Translations under genes and position numbers: made by a program | Notes under the pieces: model-generated | Databases searched by the model: none | What the model was told of the DNA's origin: nothing | The model's input: the letters and a program-made list of their open reading frames with translations, nothing else | In this document: positions 31,756-40,019 of the stretch, in pieces | Position numbering within the stretch: the first letter of the stretch is position 1 | Layout: each line of letters starts with the position of its first letter | DNA from: Lumbricus terrestris | Lineage: Eukaryota; Annelida; Clitellata; Crassiclitellata; Lumbricidae | DNA length: 64,000 nt | Assembly (NCBI GenBank): GCA_949752735.1 | Contig: OX457036.1 | Location: 8,193,192-8,257,191 of the forward strand | Direction: 5' to 3'

Positions 31756-31761
31756 CATGTG
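31756..31761. other. Maverick target-site duplication, left copy (CATGTG)
   Basis: Perfect 6-bp match to 40014-40019, directly abutting the AG terminus. Confidence 0.93.
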
Positions 31762-32086
31762 AGTAGTAAATGTATGACAGACTAAAAACATCAAAGGGTC
31801 CGGAGTTGAAACATCAAAGGGTCCGGAGTTGAAACAACAAAGGGTCCGGAGTTGAAACATCAAAGGCCGAAAGTTGGAACACCAACGTTTGTATGACTCA
31901 TCGTTAATTGGCTGACATCATCAGCGCGTGCTACAGTCGACACCCACAAATGGGTGGAGGGCCCAGTGTTTTATGAATCGACAAACTTGACTCATATGGG
32001 AGACCCCAGCCCCCAGCCCCACGCATGCTTCGTCAGCTGATTATCACCATCGACTGCAGCAGCAGCCACAGACGATGCTTAGTCAT
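31762..32086. repeat. Maverick left terminal inverted repeat (325 bp)
   Basis: It matches the reverse complement of the right end through GATGCTTAGTCAT. Its outer part has three copies of CATCAAAGGGTCCGGAGTTGAAA and a fourth diverged copy (31788-31880), a possible subterminal protein-binding array. Confidence 0.93.
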
Positions 32087-32440
32087 GGGTATTTTCGCCC
32101 AGCGCTGCCATTGCAACATGCAACACTAAGAATTGTGCAACACACATATGCAGACAGTAAAGCAGGCTTACTTAGACGGCCAACCGTAATAATCAGCGTT
32201 GCCAGAACAACACAGATGGCTAGACTTAAACCACTCTGAGGCAGATCCGCCGCTCTGACAATTATCAAACATGAACGCACACCACTTTTTATCATTTGTA
32301 TGCGCTCTAACGATGCATTTGTGGGTATATATTTGTGCCTGAATGTGTTTTAGTATAGAGTAGAAAGCATCATCGCCATCCCCACAAGCCACGCAACAAA
32401 AGTAACGAAAGAACACAGCGGTTTGATTTTCAACATCTTT
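32087..32440. other. Maverick left non-coding margin, possible small ORFs
   Basis: Between the left repeat and the protease stop there are only short overlapping minus-strand frames (32083-32295, 70 aa with two hydrophobic stretches; 32168-32416, 82 aa). They lie in different frames over the same bases, so at most one can be real and neither is recognisable. The region probably holds the 3' ends of the element's transcripts. Confidence 0.35.
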
Positions 32441-32896
32441 TTATTGATACAGAGAACACACAAAGCGATGCACTAGAAAGTCGTTTAACCCAGTGTCTCT
32501 TGTGAACATGTTGCAAATCGCATTAACGCTATAATTTCTAGCCCTATGTAGTGAATAAAAAATGCAATAGTGTCCACAGAATCTACTGCTAATGCTCTGG
32601 ATCTGACGACCAGTATTATACTGCCAGCTTGAGCAATTTTTATGTAAAAAGGTTCTGAATGGAATGTCTGGCTGTCGACCGAAACTGTCAAAAAATTCGC
32701 CATATGATGGGCTTTCAATATATATCACTATCCAGTGTATGCCCGGCTGTCCATATCTGTCTGTATTGCATACAAGTATGCTTGGCCTATTTCTATGAAC
32801 CCTAGTAGGAAGACGATCGCTAGCAAACACGCCCAAAAACATGACGGAGCACTTTTTATCTCTTCGCAGATAATTTTCAATCTTCAGACCGTCCAT
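32441..32896 (-). CDS. Maverick adenain-like cysteine protease
   Basis: The 151-residue product fits the adenovirus-type maturation protease family found in Polintons, which cleaves capsid precursors during virion assembly. Visible catalytic positions in order are His54 in GIHWIVIY, Asp70 in EFFDSFGR, Gln100 in RQIQS and Cys107 in SRFCGHYC, the His-acid-Gln-Cys order of adenain. It is the last gene of the minus-strand array, 14 bp after the major capsid gene. Length is close to Polinton proteases but shorter than adenain (about 200). No frame damage is visible. Confidence 0.9.
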   Translation of the reverse strand: MDGLKIENYLRRDKKCSVMFLGVFASDRLPTRVHRNRPSILVCNTDRYGQPGIHWIVIYIESPSYGEFFDSFGRQPDIPFRTFLHKNCSSWQYNTGRQIQSISSRFCGHYCIFYSLHRARNYSVNAICNMFTRDTGLNDFLVHRFVCSLYQ

Positions 32897-32910
32897 CTTG
32901 TTCTTCTTCT

Positions 32911-34233
32911 TTAGCTGTTATAGTCGAAAAGCACGTTGCGTGATCTGTCTATTTCCAAGATGTTTTCAAATTCTGCAAATGCGATGACGTTAATGGTAGC
33001 AGCCAGCGCCTGTGCAAACTTTAAATCGACTCGCACGTTACCACTTTTCAACAAATTAAAGTGATCACCCTCAGCCAAATCGGGAGTTAAATCGAATGCG
33101 TAAAAGCAATAGCCGCGCGCGTAGTCTTCTCTGCTGATATCGTTGTCTTCGTTTCTTTGCCACTTGCCAGTGCCCATAAAGAGTGAAGCATATGCGTTCA
33201 CAAACTGATTAGTTGCAAAGTTAGTTTCCAAGGGTTTTATACTTTGCTGTTGACCGTCTAGATATACTTTTAATTGTGTTATATTCATATGTTTGAAATT
33301 GAATGGATTCTTCGTGTAGATACCATTGAAAGCGTCATTATCCACACAACCAATCACAAGACGCGTCGGAATTTGACCGGTGAAAAGACACTCTTGAGTA
33401 ACATCCAGATTCCCTCTGGGAACCGTAAAAGTCTTGCAGACAACCCTTCGAATGGGAAACTTCAGATTTCCAATCTCTAACGCCTTGGCATGTGCGAGGA
33501 AGACTGATGGGCTTAGCTTGACTTTTCTGACATACAATTTACATTCCAGGATTTTTACTTTGTATGTAGCACCTGGCACCGAGGACAACAGACAGAATGA
33601 ATCTTTATTTCTTACGAGTCGGATTTTTATATTAATATCATTGGGTAAAAATTTTTCCTGGAAGAATAGGTCGCTGTGAATGCAGCCCAACATATCGACA
33701 ACGCGACCCTCGTCGGTCAGAGCGCTACGCTTCTTGAATCCTGAGTTCGTACCGGCATCGTCGTGCGGATTGTTTTCTTCGAAGCGCCCGGCAGTGTCTT
33801 TGTAAAATAGGGCAGAGGTGAGTTGAGAATTTTTGCTTGACGACCCGTAACTGAGTAGGGTCTCGATATAACTTCTATACGCATACGTGTTATTTGATGA
33901 AGTAACAAGGGTGTCGTTTAGAGTTATATCAACTTCGGAAAAAAGACTGTGTAGGAAAAGATTTACAGGCCCAACATGATCACCGGCGTCTATAGCTTCG
34001 TCATTCGCTCGAACGATAGATGCTCTAACGTACAGCTGTGTGTTGTTCAGATCCAGATAATCTTGGCCAGCGCCCGTTATGCTAAATTTTATAGGGGTGC
34101 CCTGCGAGATTGTTGCTATTGGATTATATTCCACGTACGAGCCAGACTCTATGCTGGTCTGAGTAGGAGGAACGCTGAAAAGATCCAGCTCGCTCTTTGC
34201 ACACTCGCAAGATTGTGGATGAACGAAAGCCAT
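32911..34233 (-). CDS. Maverick major capsid protein (double jelly-roll type)
   Basis: The 440-residue product belongs to the Polinton capsid family often labelled F54H12.2-like. It is predicted to form hexameric capsomers. Recognisable stretches are the N-terminal SELDLFSVPPTQTSIE and the beta-rich region around LFLHSLFSEVDITLND (about residues 86-101), and YRSYIETLLSYG. It starts 3 bp after the stop of the preceding gene and is followed by the protease gene, a common Polinton arrangement. The frame is complete from ATG to stop. Assignment is by family resemblance read by eye; a structural prediction should show two stacked jelly rolls. Confidence 0.88.
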   Translation of the reverse strand: MAFVHPQSCECAKSELDLFSVPPTQTSIESGSYVEYNPIATISQGTPIKFSITGAGQDYLDLNNTQLYVRASIVRANDEAIDAGDHVGPVNLFLHSLFSEVDITLNDTLVTSSNNTYAYRSYIETLLSYGSSSKNSQLTSALFYKDTAGRFEENNPHDDAGTNSGFKKRSALTDEGRVVDMLGCIHSDLFFQEKFLPNDINIKIRLVRNKDSFCLLSSVPGATYKVKILECKLYVRKVKLSPSVFLAHAKALEIGNLKFPIRRVVCKTFTVPRGNLDVTQECLFTGQIPTRLVIGCVDNDAFNGIYTKNPFNFKHMNITQLKVYLDGQQQSIKPLETNFATNQFVNAYASLFMGTGKWQRNEDNDISREDYARGYCFYAFDLTPDLAEGDHFNLLKSGNVRVDLKFAQALAATINVIAFAEFENILEIDRSRNVLFDYNS

Positions 34234-34236
34234 TTT

Positions 34237-34641
34237 TTAAATTGCTCCAAATATATCTTCCTTGATTCTTTTCCTATTTTTACTCAGTGAACGCTTACGT
34301 CTCTTCCGTCCGCTGCCGCTTTGGTTATTGAAATCCTTTGAAGATGTGAATGCCTTTATACCTTCTGGCACGCGCCGCTTGGCAGCTTCCATGATCGGAT
34401 CGCCATCCGCCACATCGTTCGCAATCTGAAGACCTGTTCTCAAGGCTTGCTTACCAAGGGCTTTAGCACCAGTCTGTATAAGTGGCCATGCACTTCTAAA
34501 GAGCCCGCTAAGAAAACTACCAATTCCATGACCGCGCTGAAGACGTGCACCCTGAAAAAAAGGCATGCCATTTCCACTTTGCTGCATATAGTAGTCTTCG
34601 TACGCCAAACGACTTGCATCACAGCAGAATGGTTTTTTCAT
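34237..34641 (-). CDS. Maverick small capsid-associated protein (basic tail, amphipathic core)
   Basis: I chose the ATG at 34641 (MKKPFCCDASR) because it overlaps the stop of the upstream gene as ATGA; a longer frame begins at 34692. The product is about 134 residues with a Gly/hydrophobic middle (GHGIGSFLSGLFRSAWPLI) and a very basic C-terminus (GRKRRKRSLSKNRKR). Polintons commonly carry such a protein next to the capsid gene. The layout resembles adenoviral pVI/core-type proteins (membrane-active helix plus DNA-binding tail), but that function is inferred only. The RRV and RRKR stretches could bind DNA or act as import signals. Confidence 0.7.
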   Translation of the reverse strand: MKKPFCCDASRLAYEDYYMQQSGNGMPFFQGARLQRGHGIGSFLSGLFRSAWPLIQTGAKALGKQALRTGLQIANDVADGDPIMEAAKRRVPEGIKAFTSSKDFNNQSGSGRKRRKRSLSKNRKRIKEDIFGAI

Positions 34642-35462
34642 TGTAAAAGATATGGGATTTTGCAGTGTCTGAAATGCAGTGTTATGATACACTTTCCGCT
34701 TTCGAATGAAACTGGCGCACCCGTGTCCGTCCTTATATGCAATTCTATGGAGTCGAAATTCTTCTGCTGCAGAGGTATATAGATGGGCTTTTCGTAGATG
34801 GTGCGCACGTTGCAGCCAGCATTACCATCGACGTTAACTATTCTGAGTAATGGCGCTTTTGTGTCTCCCACATGCACATGTTCAAGTACGTCACAGTAAA
34901 TATATAAAGCAGAAAAACCTCGATTTATATCGCAAGTTCTATCGCCAACAAACTCGAAAATGGCCTCGTCGTCCTGGCCATAATTGAGAATGGGCATCTG
35001 CTGAGCATCGATACCAAGCATCGAACACAATGCACGCGAAAAATGAATCTTTGTGCCTTTGTTTATATCGCCCATCATTCTTTTCGATACAGCGTCGTAT
35101 CTAAATTTCGGAAATTCGAGCAAGTCATTTTCCTCGGCAACTTCCCTTATAAATGTATTTATGTAATCGATAAGGTGCTGAGGCGTTTCGTAGTATCCGG
35201 CCGGAACCCAGCGTCTTTTAAATATAGGATTGCTTTGCATTGATCCACTTTCGGTAAACGTGGCGTGCGTGTATGTTATTCCGCCTTCTTGTCGTTCTAA
35301 ATTATACCATGTGTGTGGATAATGCAGTTCGAGAAGAGCAAGTTCCCATTCGCCGCTTAGAGAAATGGGATTCTCCAAACGTGTTGTAAATTGCGCTACA
35401 GTATTATTCGGATAAAATGCTGTGGAGCTGTTGCTAGGCAAAGTGAGATAGAAGTGCGCCAT
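34638..35462 (-). CDS. Maverick putative minor capsid/penton-like protein, copy A
   Basis: The 274-residue product starts MAHFYLTLPSNSS and contains the pattern NNTVAQFTTRLENPISLSG followed by WELALLELHYPHTWYN, typical of a conserved Polinton structural protein. I assign it tentatively as the single jelly-roll vertex (penton) protein. It is a tandem paralogue of the next gene: both share the N-terminal block, a central PAGYYE region and a C-terminal block (PLLRIVNV...., QQKNFDSIE). It ends with a TGA that overlaps the next gene's ATG, and its start lies 3 bp after copy B's stop. Confidence 0.72.
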   Translation of the reverse strand: MAHFYLTLPSNSSTAFYPNNTVAQFTTRLENPISLSGEWELALLELHYPHTWYNLERQEGGITYTHATFTESGSMQSNPIFKRRWVPAGYYETPQHLIDYINTFIREVAEENDLLEFPKFRYDAVSKRMMGDINKGTKIHFSRALCSMLGIDAQQMPILNYGQDDEAIFEFVGDRTCDINRGFSALYIYCDVLEHVHVGDTKAPLLRIVNVDGNAGCNVRTIYEKPIYIPLQQKNFDSIELHIRTDTGAPVSFESGKCIITLHFRHCKIPYLLQ

Positions 35463-35465
35463 TAT

Positions 35466-36335
35466 TTACTCAAGACTAAAATTTTTGCATTGTCTGAAAT
35501 GAAGTACAACGAACGACTTCCCATGTTCGAATGGGACTGTCTTTCCATTATCGCCTCTCATATATATTTCTATCGAATCGAAATTCTTCTGCTGTATAGG
35601 CACGTATATGCCGGACTTGTACAAGACGTGCACAGTATCGCCACTTTTATCTTCTATATTAACTATGCGAAGTAAAGGCGCTTTCGAATCGCCAAGCGCG
35701 ACAGATTCAATCAGATTACAATATACATATATATGTGAAAAGCTAGGATTTATATCGGCAACGTAATCAGCCTGCCATTCCCAATCAGACACCTCGTCCC
35801 ACGCTTTAATATAATCCTCGTAACGTGTGTGGTAAAAATAGGTTCCGTAATTGTTGTTTTCAACAACTTTATGTCTTTCCTCTATACCCAAAATTTTGCA
35901 CAAGTGCGATGAGAAGGTTATTCGCGCCGCGAAGTTGATCTTTCCGTGGACTCTTTTAGTTATTGCATCGTATCTAAATTTTGGATATTTGTCGAGCGAA
36001 TGCAATTCGGCGGCATCCTCAATATGCTTATTTATCGCAGCTACTACCGCATCAATATTTTCGTAATAGCCGGCAGGCAGCTGCCAAGTGTGGTGGACGG
36101 ATATGCATACGGCATCGATGCTTTCTCTTTTAGGAGTTTGGGTAAATGTAAAGCTGCCCTGACCGCTCTGAACGTTGTACCACGTGTGTGGGTACTGAAA
36201 TTGCAGAAGTGCAACTTCCCACCGGCCTTTGAGGGAGATGGCATTTTCCAACTTCGTTGTAAAGTGCGCTGTAGTATTGTCGGGGAAATGTCTCATGGAG
36301 CTATTGCTTGGAAGAGTAAGATAAAAATGCGCCAT
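35466..36335 (-). CDS. Maverick putative minor capsid/penton-like protein, copy B
   Basis: The start at 36335 (MAHFYLTLPSNSS) is chosen because it aligns with copy A; the frame extends four residues upstream (MRTT). The product is about 289 residues and parallels copy A throughout: FTTKLENAISLKG, WEVALLQFQYPHTWYN, LPAGYYENID, PLLRIVNIEDKSG and QQKNFDSIEIYMRGD. It has an extra segment near residues 150-180 (tyrosine/aspartate rich) absent from copy A. The two genes arose by tandem duplication and have diverged considerably, so both are probably under selection. Confidence 0.72.
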   Translation of the reverse strand: MAHFYLTLPSNSSMRHFPDNTTAHFTTKLENAISLKGRWEVALLQFQYPHTWYNVQSGQGSFTFTQTPKRESIDAVCISVHHTWQLPAGYYENIDAVVAAINKHIEDAAELHSLDKYPKFRYDAITKRVHGKINFAARITFSSHLCKILGIEERHKVVENNNYGTYFYHTRYEDYIKAWDEVSDWEWQADYVADINPSFSHIYVYCNLIESVALGDSKAPLLRIVNIEDKSGDTVHVLYKSGIYVPIQQKNFDSIEIYMRGDNGKTVPFEHGKSFVVLHFRQCKNFSLE

Positions 36336-36374
36336 TGTCGTTCGCATGCTCTTACAGACTGTGAGAAATTCTTG

Positions 36375-37403
36375 CTAGACTTTGTATATATCTTGAGTCC
36401 AAGAGTTGAACTTGTCATCATAGCCTTTCCATTTTACAAAATATTCTGTCTTACCGCGCCGCTTACGACTCTTCAGTATTTTTTCGATCGTATAAATATC
36501 GTCTTCCTTTAATATTTTTTGCAGCTCAAATTCGTAGAATTTACCCTTTATTTTTTCGCCACTTAAATCTTCGAGCTCATACGTTATGGGGTCTGTAGGC
36601 ACACGACTCACAATCTTAAAGATTTCCGTCGACCAGTTCGGTAAGTATCCCTTCTGGAAGGCTATCCTGGCCTTTGCGATTCTAACCTTGTCGTTCACTT
36701 CGTATTTCCATTTGGCCGGGCGCTTCTTCTCGCCATACAAACGTTTTATAATAATTTTTTCGTTGCCCTTAGAAACCTGACTGGGTGTCATTGCTATAGA
36801 TCTATGATGCGTAGTGTTGTAGGAATGAACGAGATCTTGTAAGATGTCTATATACCTATACGTATTCTTATAAGTAAAATATTTCCACATCTTGGTCTTG
36901 AGAGTTCTATTGAATCGCTCAACCACAGAGGCCTTTATGTCACTATTTTCGGACGTGTAAAAGCGAATAGAATTTTTACGTAACATGGCTTGAAAAGTTT
37001 TATTAAGGAATTCTGTGCCCTTATCAGTTTGCAAATTAGCCGGCTGACGATCTAAAAGAATGGTTGAAAATGCTGAGGTCAGGTCTGCACCAGACTTTGA
37101 TTTTAGCGGAATTGCCCAAGCATATTTAGACAAAACATCTATACACGTTAAAATATATTTATTTTTATCGTTATGTTTCACTAATGCAGAAAGATCAGCC
37201 AAGTCCGCTTGCCAAAGATTGTCAATGCCTGGTGCGAAAGTCTTTCGCCTTCTAAAGATAAGTCTAACAGGCTTATGCAAAGTGTAAGCATCTTGTTTAA
37301 TCAACCAATTTTTAACGTCTTTATTTTTAAAGTCAGAATGTTTTTGAAATGAGGTCACACCGGCGAAGCTTCCAGGCGCCTTGGGATCGAAGTACGAATC
37401 CAT
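36375..37403 (-). CDS. Maverick retrovirus-like integrase with C-terminal chromodomain
   Basis: The 342-residue product begins with the Polinton-type N-terminal block (YFDPKAPGSFAGV, QDAYTLHKPVR). The catalytic core has Asp67 (LWQADLADL), Asp127 (LQTDKGTEF) and Glu162 (SVVERFNR), a D,D-34/35-E triad. Residues about 304-342 form a chromodomain (IYTIEKILKS, YFVKWKGYDD, FNSW), which may guide integration to particular histone marks. It should cut and join the element's ends, producing the 6-bp duplication. Its ATG shares one base with the preceding stop (TGATG). Confidence 0.93.
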   Translation of the reverse strand: MDSYFDPKAPGSFAGVTSFQKHSDFKNKDVKNWLIKQDAYTLHKPVRLIFRRRKTFAPGIDNLWQADLADLSALVKHNDKNKYILTCIDVLSKYAWAIPLKSKSGADLTSAFSTILLDRQPANLQTDKGTEFLNKTFQAMLRKNSIRFYTSENSDIKASVVERFNRTLKTKMWKYFTYKNTYRYIDILQDLVHSYNTTHHRSIAMTPSQVSKGNEKIIIKRLYGEKKRPAKWKYEVNDKVRIAKARIAFQKGYLPNWSTEIFKIVSRVPTDPITYELEDLSGEKIKGKFYEFELQKILKEDDIYTIEKILKSRKRRGKTEYFVKWKGYDDKFNSWTQDIYKV

Positions 37404-38098
37404 CAGTAAGTCAGCCAGGCCGAAGAAGATGGCCTCAACGAGGTAAGCTGTTGTTTGTCGTGAATGCTCTTGGGCGTAACTGATGTCGATTCGACTGTGG
37501 AATCGTTAATATAGGCCCAACGTTCTTTATTTCCTATTAGCTCGCGAGGTATGTTTGAGTCTTTCAGAGCGTCGGCCAAGAGTCTCCAGCCGGTTGGGGG
37601 CGAAGATGTCGTGCGTTTTCTCATAAGATCGTTCACCAAATCGACCATGTGCGTTTTGGGAATGGCTGCGTCCTTCAAAATAAGTTCGCCTTTAGAATTC
37701 CAGGTCACGTCGGGGTTGCTCTTCATGTGTGTTAAAAGTTGAGCGGCCTGTGTTTTCCATTTCTTTGGAACTGTTTGCAAGACTTGAGTTTCTATGCTGC
37801 TGCTGCTGCTGCTGCTGCTACTGCCGCTGCTGCTAGTGTCTGTAGATTCGCCAGAGTCCGCCGCAGTCATCGCTTTTTCTTTGGTTTCGAACTTTGTAAT
37901 CACACTTGGTTTGTCAATGTTCAAGTAACGACTCAAACTGTTGGTATATAGTTTGGCCTTATCATCATCTGCAATATTCCTGTGCAGAATATCATACATC
38001 TGTGTGTCCAATTTCGACAGTGTTTTGTCTAGCATAGTCTCCTTCCATTTCTCTATCTGTCTAGGCTCCACCAGAACCATTTTCTTCGTATGCTCCAT
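37403..38098 (-). CDS. Maverick conserved protein of unknown function (PW-like)
   Basis: The 231-residue product has a region resembling a protein found in many Polintons: a PKKWKTQAAQLLTHMKSNPDV stretch followed by TWNSKGELI, HMVDLVNDLMR, PTGWRLLADALKD and a NKERW motif. A poly-Ser run (about 11 Ser, from a CTG-type triplet repeat at 37797-37830) separates it from a helical N-terminus. The function is unknown. Its stop overlaps the integrase start (TGATG). Confidence 0.65.
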   Translation of the reverse strand: MEHTKKMVLVEPRQIEKWKETMLDKTLSKLDTQMYDILHRNIADDDKAKLYTNSLSRYLNIDKPSVITKFETKEKAMTAADSGESTDTSSSGSSSSSSSSSIETQVLQTVPKKWKTQAAQLLTHMKSNPDVTWNSKGELILKDAAIPKTHMVDLVNDLMRKRTTSSPPTGWRLLADALKDSNIPRELIGNKERWAYINDSTVESTSVTPKSIHDKQQLTSLRPSSSAWLTY

Positions 38099-38099
38099 A

Positions 38100-38474
38100 T
38101 TATATTTTATTACTCAGCAATGTACCCAGAAAAGAAAGTACTGGAGTTAACAAGGCTCCTATGAAGCCGCCTGTCTGTACTATACGTTTCTTGATTTTTA
38201 CACGCGTCTTCTTGGATGCAAGCTTTCTCAGCTTGTGTTTGAACCGACCGAGTCTTTTCTTCTGAGCAAGTTTCAAAGGTACTGTTCCTTTTAAAATGTT
38301 GAGCGCACACTCGCAGAGGCAGCAAAGCAGAGAAGTGTTACAATCCTTTAAAATACGTTTCCGTACTTTAGGCGATGATTCTTTAAGCAGTCTGAGTTTC
38401 TCAAACTTCTCCTCAATGGGCTCGGGCATTTTGATTGAATGAGAGGTGTAGCGCGAGTAAGCGCTTATATTCAT
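38100..38474 (-). CDS. Maverick small basic protein with hydrophobic C-terminus
   Basis: The start at 38474 is favoured because ATGA overlaps the ATPase stop; MPEPIEEKFEK 15 codons later is an alternative. The 124-residue product has a CLCECALNILKG motif, a Lys/Arg-rich middle (KRLGRFKHKLRKLASKK) and a C-terminal hydrophobic segment (GGFIGALLTPVLSFLGTLL). This arrangement recurs in Polintons beside the ATPase. A DNA-condensing or membrane-interacting virion role is possible but unproven. Confidence 0.65.
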   Translation of the reverse strand: MNISAYSRYTSHSIKMPEPIEEKFEKLRLLKESSPKVRKRILKDCNTSLLCCLCECALNILKGTVPLKLAQKKRLGRFKHKLRKLASKKTRVKIKKRIVQTGGFIGALLTPVLSFLGTLLSNKI

Positions 38475-39085
38475 TTCCTTACATAGACGTAATGCGTCTC
38501 ACCCGGGAAAATATTTGATCTTATGCGGCAACGTTCGTCAGTTTCCGACCTCAGATCGACCAAAAGGTATCCGAAAGGTGCCATAGTAGCATCTTGGAAG
38601 GCCTCTATCATGAAATTTGCCTTGCCGGGAAACATCTGTCGTGCTAATATTGAAACCTGCGTGCTGTCTCTAACATTTTTGAAAAGTACAAAGTAATGCG
38701 CATTCAAACTGATTGTTCTTGAGTGCTTTCCGCTGTAGAAAAGATTCTGCGTCAGGTATAGTATAGAAACGTTCATATGATGACTAATCTTTGTAAATAA
38801 TTTGGTAACTCTCTCGTCCGTCTCACTCATAAGATCGTCTAAAATGAGCAGAGTCTTTTGCTTGCCGTCGAAAATAGCCAGGTCGGGTAAGCCCTCGTGA
38901 AATTGTACATGGGCGTATTTATCAAAGATTTCTTGATAGATTCCATAGCACCAAATAATTTTTTCTATTGCAGGTTTGACCATATAGTCTAAATGATCTA
39001 TAAATCGTAAAGTGAAGTTGGTTTTTCCACATCCACTGGGCCCGCTAATTATTGCAGAGAATGGATGCGACCATGTTGGATCCAT
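38471..39085 (-). CDS. Maverick DNA-packaging ATPase (FtsK/HerA type)
   Basis: The 204-residue product has Walker A GPSGCGKT at residues 15-22 and Walker B TLLILDDLM at about 78-86. It ends with the typical ATPase tail of this family (PFGYLLVDLRSETDERCR). It is predicted to pump element DNA into preformed capsids. Length is usual for Polinton ATPases, and the frame is intact. Its stop overlaps the downstream gene's start (ATGA). Confidence 0.92.
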   Translation of the reverse strand: MDPTWSHPFSAIISGPSGCGKTNFTLRFIDHLDYMVKPAIEKIIWCYGIYQEIFDKYAHVQFHEGLPDLAIFDGKQKTLLILDDLMSETDERVTKLFTKISHHMNVSILYLTQNLFYSGKHSRTISLNAHYFVLFKNVRDSTQVSILARQMFPGKANFMIEAFQDATMAPFGYLLVDLRSETDERCRIRSNIFPGETHYVYVRK

Positions 39086-39122
39086 TTTAAAAAGTAAATA
39101 CCTTTTGAAGCGCGCAGTCCTT

Positions 39123-39455
39123 TTATGCCATGTATATTCTTACAGTTCCAAGGATGCGCTCGTCGCATGAGGGGCAGTGTGTTGCAATGTCCGCACAAGG
39201 ATGGCACATATTCACATGCCTACACGGAAGAGATATTGACTGCACTTGCTTTTCTTTACAGAGTATACAAGTAACTGTTTTCTTCAGCTTTTCATTCTCC
39301 GCTTTAAGTTTCATAGTGCTATACTTTACAACGTTTTCCTTTTCACTGCGAAAGCTTACATCATCATCATCCTCATCTTCACTTTGACACATTACGCATT
39401 CGCATTTGTAGTTTCCACAAACATCCATTTCGCATTTACTAATGTTAGGACACAT
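39123..39455 (-). CDS. Maverick-borne RING-finger protein (IAP-type RING)
   Basis: The 110-residue product ends with a C3HC4 RING: Cys63, Cys66, Cys78, His80, Cys84, Cys87, Cys94 and Cys97, with a CPSCDERI tail like the RING of inhibitor-of-apoptosis proteins. No BIR domain is present. The N-terminus has a cysteine cluster (residues 2-23), then an acidic run (EDEDDDD) and a short helical segment (residues 45-60). It is the gene nearest the right repeat, so probably the first transcribed. As a cargo gene it may be a ubiquitin ligase acting on host defence or cell death; that role is inferred. Confidence 0.82.
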   Translation of the reverse strand: MCPNISKCEMDVCGNYKCECVMCQSEDEDDDDVSFRSEKENVVKYSTMKLKAENEKLKKTVTCILCKEKQVQSISLPCRHVNMCHPCADIATHCPSCDERILGTVRIYMA

Positions 39456-39588
39456 ATCAACCGCTGTTGCCGCTCTTTAGCAGGTTTCAATAGGAAATGA
39501 TTACTAATGAAAATATATCTTGACTTATAGGACATGCTGTGATATATTAGTCTATGTTCTATTTATAAAAATATGCTGAACAAGTATG

Positions 39589-40013
39589 ATGACTAAGCAT
39601 CGTCTGTGGCTGCTGCTGCAGTCGATGGTGATAATCAGCTGACGAAGCATGCGTGGGGTTGTGGGTGGGGGTCTCCCATATGAGTCAAGTTTGTCGATTC
39701 ATAAAACACGGGCTGCTGCAGTCGATGGTTATAATCAGCTGACGAAGCATGCGTGGGGCTGGGGGCTGGGGTCTCCCATATGAGTCAAGTTTGTCGATTC
39801 ATAAAACACTGGGCCCTCCACCCATTTGTGGGTGTCGACTGTAGCACGCGCTGATGATGTCAGCCAATTAACGATGAGTCATACAAACGTTGGTGTTCCA
39901 ACTTTCGGTCTTTGATGTTTCAACTCCGGACCCTTTGTTGTTTCAACTCCGAACCCTTTGATGTTTCAACTCCGGACCCTTTGATGTTTTTAGTCTGTCA
40001 TACATTTACTACT
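39589..40013. repeat. Maverick right terminal inverted repeat (425 bp, with 100-bp internal duplication)
   Basis: It is the reverse complement of the left repeat, with one extra exact-length 100-bp unit. Units start at 39613 and 39713 with CTGCTGCAGTCGATGGT and have diverged slightly. All genes read away from this end, so it probably holds the promoter region. Confidence 0.93.
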
Positions 40014-40019
40014 CATGTG
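40014..40019. other. Maverick target-site duplication, right copy (CATGTG)
   Basis: Perfect match to 31756-31761, directly abutting the CT end of the right inverted repeat. Confidence 0.93.

Follow-up and report, generated by a model that had tools for sequence, protein, structure and literature searches.

A Maverick-like element of the earthworm Lumbricus terrestris as a probable virion and integration segment of a multipartite polintovirus

Introduction

Polintons (Mavericks) are 15 to 20 kb long and are counted as self-synthesizing because their polymerase and integrase travel together. Here, we describe a related mobile element of 8,252 bp (positions 31762 to 40013) in a 64,000-nucleotide stretch of the genome of the earthworm Lumbricus terrestris (GenBank assembly GCA_949752735.1, contig OX457036.1; the whole stretch is called the window below). 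On the basis of its copies and of their partners in the same genome, we propose, with a probability of roughly 0.8, that this element is segment A of a multipartite Polinton, the segment for the virion and for integration, that a second kind of element (B) complements it through shared termini, and that a third (C/D) rides along.

The features shared with Polintons are terminal inverted repeats (TIRs) starting with AG, a 6-bp target-site duplication, and, on A, an RVE integrase with a chromodomain, an A32-like ATPase, an adenain-like protease, a predicted double-jelly-roll capsid protein, and a penton protein, with PolB on B. The usual Polinton length is not reached, as the elements with the terminal repeat of the window element (TIR1) measure 7.5 to 9.3 kb. 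According to the accessible part of PMC11071308, a Polinton encodes both PolB and integrase, whereas here the gene set is divided over two separately integrated elements, mostly of 8 to 10 kb, and PolB is not on A. Mavericks are named among the elements present in all analyzed mollusc genomes in the accessible part of PMC10294476.

The nearest parallel in organization is found in the Bidnaviridae. The accessible part of PMC4061559 describes bidnaviruses (Bombyx mori bidensovirus) as having two linear single-stranded DNA (ssDNA) segments that end in inverted repeats and are encapsidated separately, with a PolB derived from polintons. Two segments with TIRs and a PolB of this origin are the common features. 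In the same part of that paper, the bidnaviral genome is ssDNA, the capsid is of the parvovirus jelly-roll type, PolB and capsid genes lie on the same main segment, and neither an integrase nor integrated copies with precise ends are described. In contrast, the capsid protein reported here is predicted to be a double jelly roll, and PolB was found in neither the seven A loci nor the window.

Adintoviruses and meldviruses also have adenovirus-like virion genes, an RVE integrase with a chromodomain, and duplicate pentons, as far as the accessible part of PMC11071296 describes them. That part mentions genomes with adenovirus-class virion genes and no recognizable PolB or integrase; it names no partner segment with shared ends. 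The N-terminal OTU-like domain on PolB that belongs to the definition of adintoviruses was not found by a whole-frame Pfam scan, which also missed the polymerase domain itself. Virophages (i.e., mavirus and Sputnik) depend on giant viruses. Our penton model is nearest to the mavirus penton and our capsid model is near those of Sputnik and mavirus; unlike in virophages, there is no pointer to a giant virus here, and the polymerase is carried by a partner element whose ends are the same. Among the titles and abstract openings listed in searches of the open literature, a scope that most subscription papers fall outside, no split or multipartite Polinton is described.

Elements with one terminal repeat and different cargo

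The host genome was searched (1.06 Gb; 331 contigs) by scoring the best candidates only, and all counts below are among the matches listed. The window integrase gave at least 110 match rows. With the 302-bp TIR1 as the query, the best 40 of 98 candidate ends were scored over their full length, and 38 of them form 19 pairs, mostly 7.5 to 9.3 kb apart. Twenty TIR1 places were fetched (7 A, 5 B, 7 C, and 1 D). With the window included and L031 (one end in its stretch) left out, 20 TIR1 elements are delimited at both ends (7.5 to 9.3 kb; by sequence, 8 A, 5 B, 6 C, and 1 D). All 20 have AG-starting TIRs and a perfect 6-bp target-site duplication.

The type A elements (n = 8; the window element, L013, L016, L018, L020, L022, L026, and L029) carry the virion and integration genes. 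In one of them (L026:741-9037), a 1,607-bp stretch from the end with the protease and capsid genes recurs at the opposite end as a perfect inverted repeat, and the element lacks the RING and ATPase genes and the greater part of the gene that follows. The type B elements (n = 5; L014, L017, L019, L025, and L032) are about 9 kb long and carry PolB together with ORF169, a 169-amino-acid (aa) protein with a PC4 domain (PF02229; E = 2.8e-20), and a third gene (ZF241), which had no Pfam match and which appears spliced and zinc binding by eye only. At L025:7315, the PolB frame contains a copy of the element's own end together with 12 bases that flank the element on its left, by local duplication or by reinsertion of an end. 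The type C elements (six delimited ones and L031) have little coding sequence, and the six delimited ones have inverted arms of 1.1 to 3.1 kb that are 95.6 to 99.9% identical. Type D (L028) resembles C (82% over 3 kb) and lacks the exon-like frame of the latter. Large inverted arms and low-complexity frames were seen in the C/D elements as a whole (L015, L021, L023, L024, L027, L030, L031, and L028). The C frame is exon-like and up to 141 aa long (C141) or absent; a T-rich run ahead of it suggests, by eye, a 3' splice site.

These kinds share their ends and hardly anything else. The outer 230 bp have mean identities of 97.2% (A-A), 97.0% (A-B), 97.1% (A-C), and 96.6% (B-B), and pairs with D reach 95.4 to 95.9%, while the two ends within one element are on average 97.9 to 100% identical, depending on the kind. 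Past the outer 1,000 bp, representative A, B, and C/D elements have no DNA in common, except for C with D. The 10 A genes had no match in the 13 non-A loci fetched. Conversely, PolB, ORF169, ZF241, and C141 had no match in the seven A loci and the window, apart from one at chance level (E = 0.31). Common termini combined with complementary gene sets on separate elements, a feature of the multipartite type, were therefore found. A 100-bp subterminal unit, present in A, B, C, and D at 1 to 9 copies per end across the 20 delimited elements, may be an origin or a packaging signal.

Since no PolB was found in the window element and the 8-kb form is a multicopy lineage, it must depend on another source for its replication. 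PolB is likely provided by the second element of approximately 9 kb (B), which has the same ends and in which no type A gene was found. With PolB on B and no type A gene found there, the dependence looks mutual, as in a split genome, rather than that of a satellite on a helper.

PolB of the type B elements and selection

The PolB gene of B, 1,111 codons long, is uninterrupted in L014, L019, and L032, and its frame is broken in L017 and L025. The ExoI, ExoII, and ExoIII motifs, followed by polymerase motifs A, B, and C, are in order in these three open frames; the literal ExoI pattern was not matched in L033, which carries a PolB relative at 83% identity. Among pieces of the protein, PF03175 was matched in L033 (E = 2.5e-26) and in L014 (E = 1.9e-5; 24.2 bits, against a curated cutoff of 25.8), and two other L014 pieces had no Pfam match. 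When three B polymerases were scanned as whole frames, Pfam did not recover the polymerase domain, and a PDB sequence search with the B polymerase matched no polymerase. Genome-wide, PF03175 exceeded its cutoff at 78 places at least and the B polymerase was found at 41 places at least, with no overlap (together, 119 listed places).

PolB of TIR1 elements compared with the 83% clade has a dN/dS of 0.060 to 0.062 at a dS of about 1.8, and among the TIR1 copies the dN/dS is about 0.065 at a dS of 0.03 to 0.06. Between the window and L055, a piece that missed the end and was used for these two genes only, the ATPase has a dN/dS of 0.054 and the RING protein one of 0.35. At the level of substitutions, purifying selection is evident on one gene of each half (i.e., PolB of B and the ATPase of A). 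The integrase dS among TIR1 copies is 0.004 to 0.013 (three valid comparisons), and, judged by such values, the TIR1 copies are young.

Pairing of A and B in further terminal-repeat families

Relatives of the integrase and of PolB at 87 to 92% identity carry other terminal repeats. In TIR2, the A end of L058 (C12:29713068) and the B end of L050 (C6:3700931) are 92.6% identical over 471 bp. In TIR3, the A end of L056 (C1:60401378) and the B end of L042 (C10:6040875) are 92.4% identical over 275 bp. The TIR4 repeat was found on the A copies L057 and L060. When the ends of different families are compared, a terminal AGTAG is common by eye, and TIR1 to TIR3 also share an inner box of 32 to 44 bp. 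In two distant A copies (L053 and L054; 76 to 81%), no end was recognized, and both were excluded when the TIRs were compared; the end was not visible in the A end region L059 either.

The D-type center of L028 recurs under the TIR2-like repeat of L041, where four of five pieces (L043, L044, L045, and L047; palindromic centers of D-type elements) match at 86 to 87% and L046 matches over about 190 bp only.

The ends of the four families (the best 40 of 98 for TIR1 and the best 40 each of 183, 83, and 121 in the TIR2 to TIR4 censuses) were overlaid on the coordinates of integrase and PolB matches; three of the entries, which lie on the small contigs C293, C296, and C146, were omitted from the pair census. 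Among the 69 paired elements, 31 contain a listed integrase, 11 contain a listed PolB, 27 contain neither, and none contains both (for the 19 TIR1 pairs by gene lists, 7 A, 2 B, and 10 other). The 22 single ends comprise 12 A, 2 B, and 8 with neither gene. Both A and B are thus present in each of the four families, with B of TIR4 represented by one copy known from coordinates only. For the placed B copies, PolB identity to L014 follows the TIR family: 99 to 100% in TIR1 (three copies), 91 to 92% in TIR3 (five copies), and 89% in TIR2 (four copies). Integrase identity to the window is 98 to 100% in TIR1, 88 to 89% in TIR2, and 88 to 90% in TIR3.

These data bear on the idea that A moves by its own integrase and host replication, with B, C, and D as passengers that captured its ends. 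The integrase motifs of A are intact, and nonautonomous elements commonly retain nothing except ends, as such passengers would. We nevertheless consider this very unlikely, given that B keeps a constrained PolB frame of 1,111 aa whose identity follows the terminal-repeat family and that A retains genes for the capsid, penton, protease, and ATPase, for which movement of this kind would have no use.

No full-length parent was found in the lists. None of the 119 PolB places lies within 25 kb of any of the 109 integrase places (i.e., the 110 rows minus one row of a split match at C17:25517112), among the matches listed, and the nearest is 64 kb away. Two type A copies of TIR4 are about 17 kb long (C17:14586989-14604462 and C8:51092996-51110178; G000). 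Six 201-bp samples of these two copies gave no PolB match; the samples were spaced at 2.5 to 2.8 kb, less than the 3.3-kb PolB frame, and a decayed or partial PolB could escape them. One sample encodes a Ty3-type reverse transcriptase/RNase H (PDB 4ol8; E = 3.3e-12; a 66-aa piece on which Pfam was silent), and another is the A penton, shifted downstream. The retroelement piece and the displaced penton indicate that inserted DNA accounts for the 17-kb length at least in part, and the two copies look like A copies carrying insertions.

An earlier note on this stretch, made from the sequence alone, had expected copies with the same TIRs to reveal either a lineage of about 8 kb with one gene set or the product of a single deletion from a PolB-bearing full-length copy. 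The 8-kb form is indeed a multicopy lineage; elements with the same TIRs also carry other cargo (B and C/D), and none of the 69 paired elements contains both a listed PolB and a listed integrase. An origin of the window element by a single deletion was considered and judged unlikely, the 8-kb form being a multicopy lineage.

A related proposal is that A and B are deletion halves of one recent full-length Polinton, amplified by chance. The two together do amount to one Polinton gene set, and the two 17-kb A copies were, by their length, candidates for the parent. We hold this to be extremely improbable, as the split recurs in four terminal-repeat families, PolB has diverged to a dS of 1.8 under constraint, and the six 201-bp samples of the 17-kb copies gave no PolB match, with insertions accounting for the length of these copies at least partly.

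Capsid and penton proteins and the question of a helper

The AlphaFold2 model of the 441-aa capsid frame has a mean pLDDT of 68.7. In Foldseek comparisons, it matched the capsid protein of PBCV-1 best (E = 1.3e-13) and also those of Sputnik and mavirus (E of about 1e-10 to 1e-13; TM scores of 0.41 to 0.60 by query length), with iridovirus capsid proteins nearby as well. These matches support the prediction that the frame encodes a double-jelly-roll capsid protein. The model of the 302-aa frame (pLDDT, 84.8) matched the mavirus penton (E = 2.2e-10) and adenovirus penton base (E = 2e-9 and weaker), which supports its assignment as a predicted penton protein; the 275-aa frame is paralogous to it, at about 46%. 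Only the fold comparison gave matches, as PDB sequence searches with the capsid protein and two alignments produced nothing convincing. PHROGs searches gave no convincing match. Scans of IMG/VR with the capsid protein, as a single sequence and then as a 25-row alignment, found no relative; in contrast, a protein database holds 4589 capsid relatives at E ≤ 0.001 among the best 7999 candidates scored, with identities of up to 85%.

That abundance is relevant to the possibility that A is a satellite of a complete autonomous Polinton or of a free virus with the same ends, from which the B elements would also derive. The earlier note had raised a version of it, a capsid-forming satellite borrowing replication from a full Polinton or the host, along with a lineage that had dropped PolB. 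A has no PolB, satellites often have ends in common with their helpers, and the plentiful database relatives of the capsid protein mean that a free virus may exist. No element with both PolB and integrase was seen, however, be it among the 69 pairs or among the listed PolB places, none of which is near a listed integrase. A also retains a full capsid and integration set with a constrained ATPase, and the IMG/VR scans returned no capsid relative. We therefore regard a satellite as unlikely, and no full Polinton that could be the helper proposed by the earlier note was seen among the elements listed.

A multipartite organization and its implications

Under the multipartite organization that we favor for the window element, the PolB of B, protein primed at the shared termini, would copy A, B, and C/D in trans. 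The PC4-domain protein of B could cover displaced single strands, PC4 being a binder of ssDNA. The capsid protein, penton, ATPase, and protease of A would build and load the particle, with A, B, and C/D packaged in one particle or in separate ones, and the integrase of A would insert every segment, each insertion producing a 6-bp duplication. The similarity of the repeats would be maintained through exchange between ends (compare L026, with one end duplicated), and C/D may be regulatory segments or riders. The similar lengths of A and B (mostly 8 to 10 kb) would fit a packaging limit.

Several points weigh against this organization. Trans-replication, trans-integration, and packaging are steps that we infer. 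The B side of TIR4 is a single copy assigned by coordinates, and for three B end types (L048, L049, and L051/L052) no A partner was found, no dedicated end search having been completed. Neither listed gene is present in 27 of the 69 paired elements, and for the 10 of these in TIR1 the sequences show 1 A, 2 B, 6 C, and 1 D, whereas the 17 in TIR2 to TIR4 were scored by the gene lists. Only the best 40 ends per census were scored, which means that elements combining both genes may have escaped if they are rarer, and the integrase search detects solely relatives of the window integrase. Integrase identity fails to separate TIR2 from TIR3, and a matched integrase clade is consequently evident for TIR1 only. 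Finally, the integrase dN/dS among the young TIR1 copies is 0.26 to 0.78, with very few changes (three valid comparisons).

Extending the proposal from this element to the whole system, we lean toward regarding it as the first multipartite polintovirus, i.e., a double-stranded DNA (dsDNA) virus-transposon whose replication, virion/integration, and palindromic segments integrate separately into host chromosomes, have nothing but concertedly changing terminal repeats to link them, and have remained apart over at least four TIR lineages. Although polymerase and integrase are carried separately here, the two persist as a pair and diversify with their ends matched. If this is true, multipartite organization, which is known from ssDNA and RNA viruses, extends to a double-jelly-roll dsDNA lineage, and integrated segments could reassort via the host germ line. 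The system would also be a natural test of the coevolution of terminal repeat, polymerase, and integrase. For annotation, it serves as a warning that "PolB-less" Mavericks may be segments and not wrecks.

Structure and gene content of the window element

The features of the window element are collected in Table 1. The exact CATGTG duplication, the AG-starting inverted repeats, the 10 minus-strand genes in 8.25 kb, and the absence of PolB had all been noticed before, and each held on reanalysis. CATGTG flanks the element perfectly on both sides (a single 6-bp flank match occurs at random in about 1 of 4,096 cases). The inverted repeats begin with AGTAGTAAATG and are 99% identical over 302 bp within the element, or 98% over 316 bp when flanking bases are included. 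Ten stop-to-stop frames on the minus strand cover 7,036 of the 8,252 bases. A Pfam scan of these frames found no polymerase, and tblastn with the PolB of the partner element had no match in the element and 10 kb of flank on each side.

Table 1. Coordinates of features of the element in the window
Feature	Position	Strand	Basis
Left target-site duplication CATGTG	31756..31761	.	Sequence
Left terminal inverted repeat, 302 bp; holds 23-bp subrepeats and one 100-bp unit; occurs on A, B, C, and D elements	31762..32063	+	
Adenain-like cysteine protease; HW, FDS, and Q..SSRFCG..C motifs	32441..32896	-	PF00770, E = 7.4e-6
Major capsid protein, 440 aa, predicted double jelly roll	32911..34233	-	Foldseek of model; Pfam weak
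Small basic protein; the first Met is residue 61 of its 194-aa frame	34237..34641	-	pX/pVI-like by eye, putative role; no convincing family match
Penton paralogue 2, 274 aa; shares about 46% identity with paralogue 1	34638..35462	-	Sequence comparison, joint alignment
Penton paralogue 1, 293 aa	35466..36347	-	Predicted model matches mavirus penton and adenovirus penton base
RVE integrase with C-terminal chromodomain; D, D, E motif stretches	36375..37403	-	PF00665, E = 1.9e-10; PF00385, E = 4.8e-10
Serine-rich protein without family match, 231 aa	37403..38098	-	Frame, Pfam
Basic protein without family match, 124 aa	38100..38474	-	Frame, Pfam
Packaging ATPase, A32-like; Walker A and B	38471..39085	-	PF04665, E = 5.4e-6
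RING finger protein	39123..39455	-	PF13920, E = 4.7e-9
Two tandem copies of the 100-bp subterminal unit	39612..39811	.	Repeat comparison
Right terminal inverted repeat	39712..40013	-	Repeat comparison
Right target-site duplication CATGTG	40014..40019	.	Sequence

Pfam matched the RING protein, the A32-like ATPase, the integrase (rve and chromodomain), and the adenovirus protease, and gave a weak double-jelly-roll match under the cutoff. The PF04665 and PF00770 matches of the ATPase and the protease exceed the curated cutoffs, and the motif stretches of the integrase, the ATPase, and the protease are in place.

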